From the NCBI GenBank assembly GCA_003167215.1, contig PMTV01000068.1, positions 64,627-101,466 on the forward strand: a stretch of 36,840 bases of DNA, read 5' to 3'. The translations under genes and the position numbers were made by a program. Within the stretch, counting starts at the first letter, position 1; each line of letters begins with the position of its first letter. The notes beneath the pieces are model-generated. The model ran no database searches. It was not told the DNA's origin and was given only the letters and a program-made list of their open reading frames with translations. Below are positions 24,786 through 27,587 of the stretch, piece by piece. Source of the DNA: Acidobacteriota bacterium (lineage in GTDB: Bacteria > Acidobacteriota > Terriglobia > Acidiferrales > UBA7541).

Positions 24786-24823
24786 GGAAGGCGGGGTTTC
24801 ATGCGATGCGGAGGTTCCGTACC
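24786..24823 (+). pseudogene. integrase 3'-part relic fused to a tRNA-Arg fragment
   Basis: About 38 bp align with the intact integrase at 27217-27254 with roughly 80% identity, including the exact 14-mer TTTCATGCGATGCG that encodes F-H-A-M-R, the HxxR catalytic box. The similarity stops exactly where the tRNA-Arg-derived 24-mer begins. Compared with the right end of the island, about 278 bp are missing, so this looks like a deletion-scarred copy of an integrase/tRNA junction. Confidence 0.7.
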
Positions 24824-24847
24824 ACTCCCGACCTTTTGGTTCGTAGC
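24824..24847 (+). repeat. 24-bp perfect copy of tRNA-Arg T-arm to anticodon loop (att-like)
   Basis: The 24 bases are identical to 27533-27556 inside the tRNA-Arg gene and in the same orientation. They cover the T-stem through the anticodon loop, the usual crossover segment for tyrosine recombinases that integrate in tRNA genes. It marks the left limit of the 2.7-kb island. Confidence 0.85.
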
Positions 24848-25353
24848 AAGCCGCAGTCAAAATCCAAATGGCTTGTTTGGTGTCGCTTACGAATCGAAAA
24901 ATACCATTCGAACCCGCACAACGATACCTAGTTGAGACCTAGCCTGCAAATAGCAAGAAAACGAACCTACTCAGACCTTGACTGGTAGTTTTGTCCAGTC
25001 TTCGGAGCCATCACTCCGATGTCCGTGGAAATCGGATAGGTTTCACTACCACACGTATCTTGCAGCAATAGAAACCGTGCGGGGAGAAACTTGTCAAAAA
25101 CATGCCAGTCCCGTGACCTTCCGTAACAAAAATTCGTCCACACAAGTTATAAAAGCAATCATGCGTGTTGATTCAAAATAAGTTCTGTATTTGCGTCACG
25201 ATTTTCAGAATCCGGCTTACAGGCTTACCCGCCAAATATTTTGGTTTTTGGAATCTGCGCTAATCCAGGTTTTGACGCCGGACTGTGAGTTCCACACTTC
25301 GTTGCAGACGCTTAAACGTTCCGGCGTTTGGGCGGAGAGTGTAAGCTCGTCAA
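24848..25353. other. gene-poor left part of the island
   Basis: About 500 bp hold only weak ORFs (for example 24978-25181) with no ribosome binding site and no recognisable product. I see no tRNA, terminator or further integrase fragment here. Decayed element sequence is the likeliest content. The promoter of the XRE gene should lie at its right end. Confidence 0.4.
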
Positions 25354-25743
25354 ATGGAAATCGGCCCAAGGCTGCGTGAACTACGTGAACAGAGACATCT
25401 ATCTCAAGGCGACATTGAGAACAAGACCGGGCTTCTGCGTTGCTACGTCAGCCGGGTAGAAAACGGTCACACTATTCCTAGTGTCGAAACTCTCGAAAGG
25501 TATGCCCGTGCGTTAAGAATCCCTCTGTATCGGCTCTTCACAGACGGCCAACCAGTAAATATGCCGAAGCTGCCGTCAATCAAAGCTGCGTGGGGCGCTG
25601 ACGGCAAACACCAGCATGAGCTTCGTCTATTCGCCAAGGCTTTCAGGCGACTGGACAAACCGCGAATAAAAACTTCTTATAGGGCTAGCACAGAAAATGG
25701 TCACCCGCCGCGTAAAAAAAGTTCGGTACTCCCAACGTCATAG
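25354..25743 (+). CDS. XRE-family helix-turn-helix regulator
   Basis: The 129-aa protein has an N-terminal Cro/CI-type HTH at about residues 5-62: L-R-E-L-R-E-Q-R-H-L-S-Q-G-D-I-E-N-K-T-G, then S-R-V-E-N-G-H-T-I-P-S-V-E-T-L-E-R-Y-A. The C-terminal ~60 residues are basic and unrecognised. It probably controls the genes of the island. No Shine-Dalgarno sequence is visible before the ATG, which may indicate a leaderless or weakly translated message. Confidence 0.85.
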   Translation: MEIGPRLRELREQRHLSQGDIENKTGLLRCYVSRVENGHTIPSVETLERYARALRIPLYRLFTDGQPVNMPKLPSIKAAWGADGKHQHELRLFAKAFRRLDKPRIKTSYRASTENGHPPRKKSSVLPTS

Positions 25744-25786
25744 ATTATGAAACGACAACAGGGGTAGAGCATCAATGGAGGATACA

Positions 25787-25966
25787 ATGTCTGAAAGCGG
25801 CAAGATTGCAGCAGCGATTCTTACTCAGACGGTCTTGAGCAGTGAAGCGGGACAAAAAGCGTTCCAAACAGAGATAGACAATCTAAAGGAACGTAAATCT
25901 GTTCAAGAGGATTATGCTCACGTCATTAAAACATATTACGACAAGATGCTTATCGTAGTGGCGTAA
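25787..25966 (+). CDS. small island protein, unknown function
   Basis: The 59-aa product (M-S-E-S-G-K-I-A-A-A-I-L) starts at an ATG five bases after GGAGG; the upstream in-frame ATG at 25775 partly overlaps this ribosome binding site. The protein is mostly helical and ends with a short hydrophobic tail (M-L-I-V-V-A). It is not recognised. Confidence 0.55.
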   Translation: MSESGKIAAAILTQTVLSSEAGQKAFQTEIDNLKERKSVQEDYAHVIKTYYDKMLIVVA

Positions 25967-25995
25967 GTAAGCAGTTGGTCAGGGAGACAGAAACA

Positions 25996-26232
25996 ATGAC
26001 GTACCAAATTTGTCGCAATCCCACGTGCCAGAACTCCCACGATACTACCGAGACGAATTGTCCTGATTGCGGCGAGCCATATCAAACATCCATACAACCT
26101 ATGCCCAACTTCTCTCAGGAGTTGCTTTTGGAACATATAAAGGATGTCGCAAGAGCGCTGATGAAGGCTGCCACCAAAAGCGGTCTGACGAAGGAACAAG
26201 TGCTTGAGGCAATTCAGGAAGTCCTCAGATAG
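25996..26232 (+). CDS. small zinc-ribbon island protein
   Basis: The 78-aa protein starts at the ATG at 25996, eight bases after AGGGAGA. C6-x4-C11 and C22-x2-C25 form a likely zinc ribbon (N-C-P-D-C-G-E-P-Y). A helical C-terminal part follows (L-L-L-E-H-I-K-D-V-A-R-A-L-M-K-A-A and L-T-K-E-Q-V-L-E-A-I-Q-E). It could be a regulator or adaptor. It is the second zinc-ribbon protein in this accessory region, but it is not an obvious paralogue of the 23248 gene. Confidence 0.6.
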   Translation: MTYQICRNPTCQNSHDTTETNCPDCGEPYQTSIQPMPNFSQELLLEHIKDVARALMKAATKSGLTKEQVLEAIQEVLR

Positions 26233-26278
26233 AGACTTGCCGAAGCAATCCTCAAAACCTATTTTTCAGGAGATTCCA

Positions 26279-26368
26279 TTGGCTTTAACCATCACTGCAA
26301 ATCTACAGGACTTAGCGGGCACGCTGAACGTCGGCTGGGCCATCTTTACGCTTGTCGGCTTACAATGA
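26279..26368 (+). CDS. possible 29-aa hydrophobic peptide
   Basis: A TTG start six bases after AGGAG opens a 29-codon frame ending in a hydrophobic stretch (V-G-W-A-I-F-T-L-V-G-L). It could be a truncated membrane peptide or a chance ORF. Confidence 0.3.
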   Translation: MALTITANLQDLAGTLNVGWAIFTLVGLQ

Positions 26369-26413
26369 TATACGATTGTTATACACTTGTTCTGCGGTTA
26401 AAGGAGCACCACA

Positions 26414-26575
26414 ATGAACGCAAAACAGAAAGAAGCGGTGAAGGTGGCCGCTGAAATCAAACGGGTGGCGCAGACCGCCGCGAGAGCCATAATGCATCGC
26501 GCAGCGGTTGAAGCCATCTTGTTACGGAAGCAAGCAGCAATCGTGGCTGCAGCCTTGGTCGCGAAGGCAAAGTAA
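26414..26575 (+). CDS. small Ala/Lys-rich helical island protein
   Basis: A 53-aa ORF lies seven bases after AAGGAG. Composition is Ala, Lys, Arg and Val, with strong amphipathic helix character (A-A-E-I-K-R-V-A-Q-T-A-A-R-A), as in small nucleoid- or membrane-associated peptides. No family is recognised. The ribosome binding site and the RHH gene 12 bp downstream support translation. Confidence 0.5.
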   Translation: MNAKQKEAVKVAAEIKRVAQTAARAIMHRAAVEAILLRKQAAIVAAALVAKAK

Positions 26576-26587
26576 CAAAAGGGCTCT

Positions 26588-26737
26588 ATGACAAAAACGC
26601 TGACAGCAGTACGCATCAAAGAACGTGATTTAGAAGCACTGAAGAAACTCGCCAAGAAAGAAGATGAGTCGGTGAGCTACTTCATTCAGCAAGCGATTCG
26701 AGAATTTCTTGACCGACACAAAGGAGTAAAACCATGA
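26588..26737 (+). CDS. ribbon-helix-helix (CopG-like) DNA-binding protein
   Basis: The 49-aa protein has the RHH pattern: a beta strand (L-T-A-V-R-I), then helix 1 (E-R-D-L-E-A-L-K-K-L-A-K-K), the turn E-D-E-S-V-S, and helix 2 (Y-F-I-Q-Q-A-I-R-E-F-L). CopG-like proteins act as plasmid or island regulators or antitoxins. The following ORF overlaps its stop (ATGA) but is a signal-peptide fragment, not a recognisable toxin. Confidence 0.75.
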   Translation: MTKTLTAVRIKERDLEALKKLAKKEDESVSYFIQQAIREFLDRHKGVKP

Positions 26738-26844
26738 AACTACAAATAGCAGTTCTAGCAGCAGTACTGATGGCGACGCCCGTGTTTGCACAGCAGGCTC
26801 AAACCCCGCTCCGAAGTGAACGGCGAACAAAAATATATGTATGA
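26734..26844 (+). CDS. signal-peptide ORF, probably truncated exported protein
   Basis: A 36-codon ORF has its own ribosome binding site (AGGAG, eight bases upstream) and a perfect Sec signal (I-A-V-L-A-A-V-L-M-A-T-P-V-F-A, cut near Q-Q-A-Q). It stops almost at once. A +1 shift would continue V-N-G-E-Q-K-Y-M-Y-E-F-P, so the ORF looks like an exported protein disrupted by a frameshift, then broken off at the integrase sequence. Its stop overlaps the integrase ATG. Confidence 0.5.
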   Translation: MKLQIAVLAAVLMATPVFAQQAQTPLRSERRTKIYV

Positions 26845-27485
26845 GTTTCCCTACCGCCCGATTGAGAAAGGCTATCGTTGAGAACGTTTTCGGACAAGAG
26901 AGGGCGTTGTACGCCCTACTCGCCGGAACAGGAATTAGGATTGGTGAGGCCCTTGGTCTTGAAATGAAGCACCTTTCTGCTGATTGCCGAACCATCACGA
27001 TTGAGCAGTCCTGCTGGGAAGGTGTTATTCAGGCACCAAAGACAAAGAACGCTTACCGAGAAGTGGACATCAATTGCGAACTGGCAAAATTGCTGAAAAG
27101 TTATATTGGAACACGCCAGTCAGGATTCCTGTTCGCCAACAAACTTGGTAAGCCGTTGTCTCAGACAAATCTGCGCCGTAGGTCCCTCCATCCTGTCTTG
27201 AAGAAACTCAAGGTGGGGAAGGCAGGTTTTCATGCGATGCGAAGGCTTCGTATTACTTGGCTGAGAAAGCGGCGAGCGCCAGAAGACCTTATTAGATTCT
27301 GGATTGGACAAGCAGAGCAATCGGTGACTGATGGATACTCCAAGCTGTCTGGTGACGTGGAATTTCGCAAGCAGGTCGTCGAAGAAGTCGGAACGGGATT
27401 TGTCGTTCCGGCCTGCGAGGAAAGGCCAATGATACCTATGAGACCTAAAACGTGGAGCGAAAGGAGGATTGCAGTTGCAGCGTAA
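26841..27485 (+). pseudogene. tyrosine recombinase (phage-type integrase), N-terminally truncated
   Basis: 214 aa remain of the catalytic domain: R33 in G-I-R-I-G-E-A-L, the K69 region in P-K-T-K-N-A-Y-R-E-V, and H131-A-M-R134. Q157 stands where most family members have His (W-I-G-Q). The expected nucleophile is Y166 in D-G-Y-S-K-L. The N-terminal core-binding domain (usually 100-150 residues) is missing, and the frame is closed by a TGA just upstream. Truncation plus the His-to-Gln change argue that it is inactive. It lies 25 bp from the 3' end of tRNA-Arg, the normal place for an integrase of a tRNA-targeted element. It could still be a functional short recombinase, but this is less likely. 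Confidence 0.8.
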
Positions 27486-27510
27486 GTCTCAATTATTGTG
27501 TGAGAAAGAA

Positions 27511-27587
27511 TGGTGCGCCCGGGGGGATTCGAACTCCCGACCTTTTGGTTCGTAGCCAAACGCTCTATCCAGCTGAGCTACGGGCGC
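27511..27587 (-). tRNA. tRNA-Arg (anticodon ACG), CCA encoded
   Basis: On the minus strand the acceptor GCGCCCG pairs with CGGGCGC, with discriminator A and an encoded CCA. The anticodon stem TTTGG/CCAAA encloses CTACGAA, giving anticodon ACG. The T-arm contains GTTCGAATC. It is the expected substrate of the TadA encoded at 5884-6345. It is the integration target of the island to its left and remains complete. Confidence 0.96.
27533..27556 (+). repeat. att-like core inside tRNA-Arg
   Basis: This 24-bp segment of the tRNA gene is repeated exactly at 24824-24847. It is the right boundary of the island. Confidence 0.85.

Follow-up and report, generated by a model that had tools for sequence, protein, structure and literature searches.

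The window analyzed here is a 36,840-nucleotide stretch of an Acidobacteriota genome (3.78 Mb in 68 contigs; assembly GCA_003167215.1, contig PMTV01000068.1, positions 64,627 to 101,466 of the forward strand); the named records with a repeat of it are metagenome assemblies of Acidobacteria subgroup 2, Candidatus Acidiferrales, and Terriglobia. It holds an island at a tRNA-Arg(ACG) gene that very probably arose by the serial insertion of small integrative elements into that one gene, followed by a deletion at the right end of an older element. The result is a scrap of an earlier integrase gene, int1, fused directly to a tRNA-derived attachment core. As empty, normal, undeleted-accretion and deleted junctions all occur in related genomes, this sequence of events is testable. 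The features on which the reading turns are as follows (strand in brackets where one applies):

24783–24826 (+): HxxR-block relic of the earlier integrase (int1), 44 bp; 41/44 identical to the integrase of genome G015, 83% to the resident one
24824–24826: ACT common to the integrase scrap and the tRNA core, the deletion joint; overlap of the two repeats
24824–24847: left copy of the attachment core, 24 bp, from the tRNA T-arm to the anticodon loop; perfect repeat
24848–24941 (+): newest element, left arm; ~83% identity with the arm after an intact displaced tRNA half in genome G012
27533–27556: right copy of the attachment core, 24 bp, inside tRNA-Arg(ACG); perfect repeat
27508–27587 (−): tRNA-Arg(ACG) including the encoded CCA, functional, with a 3' half from the newest element; ARAGORN, sole copy found in the assembly

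A layered island at tRNA-Arg(ACG)

A preliminary description of the locus had pointed to a perfect 24-bp tRNA repeat with its copies 2709 bp apart, and this is what we find: the 24824–24847 and 27533–27556 copies of the core show that spacing and are the perfect part of a longer, 31-nt repeat (24824–24854 and 27533–27563; 90% identical). The right copy falls within the tRNA-Arg(ACG) gene that ARAGORN calls at 27511–27587 on the minus strand, its CCA end occupying 27508–27510; a single gene of this kind was found in the assembly, with the next best match at 84%. Direct repeats of the tRNA end thus stand at both borders, and the tRNA is rebuilt on one side, as in tyrosine-recombinase elements that target tRNA genes. 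The newest element is 24824–27556.

The same description placed an island at this tRNA-Arg, correctly, but gave it a span of 24786–27587, which is too small. G019, the closest genome, represents the empty site: its pit gene, tRNA-Arg and acyl-acyl carrier protein (acyl-ACP) synthetase gene are contiguous. On the pit side, the window agrees with G019 at 95% identity as far as 22023, a stretch that takes in 16 bases of the tRNA 3' end; on the tRNA side, the match resumes at 27507 with 93% identity. The insert is, therefore, ~5.5 kb long, from 22008 to 27507. Its surroundings are:

20236–21828 (−): PitA-type phosphate transporter gene, native left flank; NCBIfam PitA match, 95% DNA identity to G019 over 21500–22023
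22008–22023 (−): remnant of the tRNA-Arg 3' end (CCA and acceptor arm), far left island border; in-register alignment with the intact G019 tRNA
27716–30235 (−): acyl-ACP synthetase/acyltransferase gene, native right flank; Pfam, same neighbour in G019

The island comprises at least three layers, namely the newest element and two older ones further left that are marked by a boundary repeat, D1. At least two elements, accordingly, share one target with attachment (att)-type sequences between them (the left core; D1 at 22008 and 22923), the arrangement typical of tandem accretion of the cis-mobilizable element (CIME) type. In the right att site of the older element, the outer part is deleted and the core is kept. 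Tandem accretion had been claimed for the locus and is borne out by the relatives; the two additional left boundaries and the reach of the island to 22008 had not been foreseen.

The probable deletion joint and its counterparts in relatives

The sequence fused to the left core had been described as a 38-bp integrase relic aligning with 27217–27254. The fusion and the homology both stand, though the piece is 44 nt long and its closest match is the integrase of G015. In the integrase frame it reads GKAGFHAMRRFRTT (G-K-A-G-F-H-A-M-R-R-F-R-T-T), which is the HxxR block of the integrase family, and with the resident integrase it forms a 42-nt repeat (24785–24826 and 27216–27257; 83% identical). The significance of the similarity was assessed from the local score of 24700–24900 against several integrases, each compared with 1000 dinucleotide shuffles. 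The scores were 24.5 for the resident integrase (shuffle maximum 13.5), 36.5 for that of G015 (maximum 14.0) and 32.5 for that of G010 (maximum 14.0), whereas the score against the more distant G109 integrase was not above the shuffles. The alignment check that had been suggested thus comes out clearly in favor of a real relationship with the first three. Since the best match is to G015 (41/44) and the resident integrase is only 83% identical, the scrap derives from a different, earlier integrase. It is truncated on its left side as well as on its right.

The states that should precede and surround such a joint are found in other genomes. In G012, a full displaced tRNA 3' half and core precede a left arm that is ~83% identical to 24824–24941; this is the product expected of simple integration, with the displaced tRNA 3' end on the left as had been anticipated, and it establishes 24824 as a genuine element border. 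At locus L165 of G072, the order is a broken integrase end, a spacer, a tRNA-Arg 3' half of 46 nt (3615–3660) and then the left arm of another element, which contains a ParDE-like gene pair (gene names by inspection). The window is predicted to have had such an undeleted junction until its own deletion took place. In G015, the closest relative of the scrap adjoins the equivalent tRNA-Arg and has experienced its own ~160-bp loss between integrase and tRNA (L055, 2940–3306), with the catalytic Tyr region gone and the loss stopping just short of the tRNA, which is spared. Longer series of this kind are seen at L165 (G072; 3615 and 6846), L192 (G066; 1673 and 6814) and L173 (G066; 2194 and 5355), with two displaced tRNA-Arg 3' halves per fetched stretch, each then followed by an element left arm, some of these alike and some different; these loci are multi-layer arrays.

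Two other loci of G012 contain incomplete tRNA-Arg copies. At L061 (contig C80), a tRNA-Arg 3' fragment (5781–5843) in the opposite orientation adjoins the acyl-ACP synthetase gene, where the window and G019 have the whole tRNA. At L079 (contig C60), a tRNA-Arg 5' half (1303–1343) lies ~2 kb upstream of a complete tRNA-Arg(ACG) (3406–3482).

The distance from the end of the HxxR block to the core is 262–275 bp in five family members outside the window, and together with the shared ACT this implies a loss of ~265–278 bp. The preliminary description took the left boundary for what remains of the right end of an earlier element, inserted at the same tRNA, after a loss of ~278 bp. This central claim is upheld, each state that it predicts being present in a relative (G019, G012, G072 and G015). 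The comparison with related genomes that the description called for yields both an empty tRNA-Arg (G019) and an undeleted counterpart of the junction (G072).

We propose that integrative elements with tyrosine recombinases would have entered the same tRNA-Arg(ACG) gene one by one, each displacing the previous tRNA 3' half and bringing a new one. Because every insertion pushes the earlier half outward, older elements should lie further to the left. The right side of the predecessor would have consisted of its integrase gene, a spacer of ~25 bp and a tRNA 3' half. With the newest element present, this displaced half would have become dispensable, and a deletion at the 3-bp overlap (ACT), possibly mediated by that microhomology, would have taken the ~265–278 bp that run from the integrase C-terminus across the spacer and include the outer part of the tRNA half, so that the HxxR block came to abut the core. 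On its other side, the scrap would have been joined to the end of a phosphoesterase gene by a second deletion, and the two D1 repeats further left would mark still older insertions. As tRNA-Arg(ACG) was found only once in the assembly, loss of its outer half would probably kill the cell if the newest element had not yet supplied a replacement; hence, the deletion most likely came last, after the second insertion.

Certain points weigh against this account. An overlap of 3 bp lends little support to a microhomology mechanism, and a 44-bp scrap is not assignable to any particular older element. The empty site of G019 could also reflect loss of an island rather than its never having been present. 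The compared assemblies are metagenome-derived fragments, and none of the relatives has the same two elements both with and without the deletion, which is deduced from paralogous junctions. One could suppose that no older element ends at the left boundary and that an unrelated rearrangement, such as aberrant excision or recombination between integrases, joined an integrase fragment to the core. The scrap is indeed cut on both sides and tiny, and no other piece of the older integrase remains nearby. However, the order and orientation of integrase end, tRNA core and next element match the accretion junction of G072, and the best match of the scrap sits at the equivalent tRNA in G015, making such a rearrangement very improbable. 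We hold it very unlikely, too, that the deletion occurred first and broke the tRNA, which the newest element then repaired with its own 3' half upon entering through the surviving core. The intact core would make integration into a damaged copy mechanically possible, with the same end product; but with a single tRNA-Arg(ACG) found in the assembly, cells carrying a broken copy would probably not be viable, and in relatives the already displaced tRNA halves are often still complete, so that their loss can follow a later insertion. Finally, a chance resemblance to integrase at an ordinary mutated attachment site, for which one might cite the shortness of the scrap and the G109 comparison, is refuted by the scores far above the shuffles against three integrases and the correctly read HxxR block.

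Contents of the newest element and the older layers

The newest element contains:

24923–24941 (+): candidate integrase arm site GATACCTA..GAGACCTA, left; motif match
25354–25743 (+): XRE-type helix-turn-helix regulator; Pfam HTH_3
25975–26232 (+): 85-aa open reading frame (ORF) with N-terminal Cys pairs; ORF list, weak SinI match below cut-off
26591–26737 (+): CopG-type ribbon-helix-helix protein; Pfam RHH_1
26841–27485 (+): resident tyrosine recombinase (int2) without its N-terminal half, LGHA His replaced by Gln; Pfam PF00589, G109 alignment
27431–27447 (+): candidate integrase arm site GATACCTA..GAGACCTA, right; motif match
27486–27507 (+): spacer, integrase stop to tRNA CCA end; near-constant length in the integrase family

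The preliminary description recognized the integrase/tRNA junction here but not that int2 itself is dead, so that both integrases of the locus are broken. It can be aligned only with residues 237–434 of the 442-aa G109 frame and reads IGQA where its relatives read LGHA; rather than a complete, active recombinase, it is a decayed member of the tRNA-targeting tyrosine-recombinase elements. Given the missing N-terminal half and this substitution, the newest element is probably fixed. As expected of an integrase next to its attachment site, int2 stops 22 bp short of the encoded CCA. In 6/10 loci, the integrase stop lies 24–25 bp from the ARAGORN tRNA 3' end (CCA not counted), a constancy that holds for tRNA-Arg, Pro and Asn (L112, L114, L115, L118, L056 and the window at 27485–27510). 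The GATACCTA..GAGACCTA motif is found inside both element ends and again in G012, a placement that suits integrase arm sites. With a score of 15 bits, far below the integron integrase cut-offs of 265 and 435 bits, int2 is not of the IntI type. A viral origin was rejected, as viral contigs yielded neither a relative of the integrase nor D1. A 59-bp segment of the newest element (25207–25265) recurs at 92% identity right where contig C51 of this genome begins, and G019 and G003 have weaker copies of it; a 32-bp sequence, also of the newest element, was considered as a frequent repeat and dismissed, having only four copies in 20 genomes.

The older layers to the left contain:

22008–22098 (+): D1 boundary repeat (~84–91 bp), first copy; member of a family whose left edge is sharp, at TGG
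22203–22892 (+): 229-aa ORF, function unknown, layer 1 cargo; ORF list, no Pfam/NCBIfam hit
22923–23013 (+): D1 boundary repeat, second copy, layer 2 start; 76% identical to the first
23179–23478 (+): 99-aa ORF with CxxC pairs, layer 2 cargo; ORF list
23475–24785 (+): calcineurin-like phosphoesterase gene, last residues lost, TAG stop coinciding with the integrase scrap; Pfam PF00149

The phosphoesterase homologues in G008 and G009 are a few residues longer at the end, placing the second deletion joint at ~24783. They adjoin 16S rRNA with no integrase in view, and the gene was accordingly rejected as typical integrase-linked cargo; its assignment to an older element is putative.

Conservation in the D1 family (46 nhmmer hits across the fetched loci, of which 39 could be stacked) sets in abruptly with TGG, which is complementary to the CCA end, and continues with CGCGCCC as in tRNA-Arg. 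Besides the window, it occurs at L072, L077, L131 and L161–L180, and a peptide version is found in 23/299 genomes of the class, all of one family. A tRNA is in view at 11 loci; in 10 of these, D1 is present 3' of a tRNA-Arg and shares its polarity, at a distance of ~10 kb in one case. Within the window, the first copy occupies the very position of the native tRNA end in G019. We read the D1 copies as probable boundaries of older insertions. The units between successive D1 copies, or between D1 and a tRNA, contain small genes (by inspection) such as VapBC-like ones, an antitoxin-like HTH protein with a toxin-like partner, and SnoaL-like ones; most show no integrase, with integrase pieces in three D1 loci besides the window. 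Two other identities for D1 were set aside. One took it for the C-terminal tail of an integrase that integration had split, as in the SSV (Sulfolobus spindle-shaped virus) type; no long open frame with the tail was found in 299 genomes, and the weak codon-position variation also counts against it, so that this idea is rejected for now. The other took the whole of D1 for a decayed tRNA half; its first 10 bases match, the rest being no better than shuffles in 3/4 comparisons. A more speculative possibility, which we regard as doubtful, is that D1 is the recombination site of an integron-like cassette system of Acidobacteriota subgroup 2/Ca. Acidiferrales, entering via tRNA-Arg 3' ends and made up of small, mostly integrase-free cassettes served in trans by a shared tRNA-targeting recombinase. 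Each cassette may then be headed by D1, several with toxin-antitoxin-like genes, and two such cassettes may lie under the newest element of the window. D1 arrays were not found in a limited literature search, which is no proof of novelty.

Known systems and wider meaning

The process as such, i.e., tandem accretion and deletion giving rise to CIMEs, is already published, and the present locus is an unusually well-documented further case. Tandem integration followed by deletion is known for ICESt1-related elements (Pavlovic et al. 2004, as cited in PMC5704250 and PMC3146451), and likewise for the ssrA islands of Dehalococcoides (PMC3146451) and the tRNA-Lys-repeat islands of Methylophilaceae (PMC10872708). 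As far as those citing accounts portray the accretion of integrative and conjugative elements, integrative and mobilizable elements, and CIMEs, it resembles our locus in that elements integrate site-specifically and in series into one target, the older element decays through deletion, and att-type repeats separate the layers; by comparison, our elements are small, no conjugation genes were seen in them, and the deletion reaches into the att site, leaving the older layer without part of its right att. In Dehalococcoides, several islands stand in tandem at ssrA with direct repeats of its 3' end, many of them without integration genes (PMC3146451); the parallel lies in tandem islands at one RNA gene marked by such repeats and often lacking integration genes, although a serine recombinase and a tmRNA target are used there, as opposed to a tyrosine recombinase and tRNA-Arg here. 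The additive flexible genomic islands of Methylophilaceae, with tRNA-Lys repeats (PMC10872708), are likewise variable gene islands marked by short tRNA-end repeats and are not integrons, whereas the junctions here are tRNA-Arg 3' halves or the longer conserved D1, which merely begins like a tRNA end. Tycheposons, in the outline given in PMC10872708, also combine a tyrosine recombinase, a tRNA target and cargo islands; relative to that outline, our locus is at or below the small end of the size range and retains only short decayed remains.

Layered junctions at tRNA genes are a readable record of the order of insertion and loss, a known process that is here legible directly from relatives. Across this soil group, tRNA-Arg genes appear to gather small cassettes behind a conserved boundary repeat, several of the cassettes having toxin-antitoxin-like pairs. 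Should a recombinase prove to act on D1, this would constitute another route of cassette exchange.

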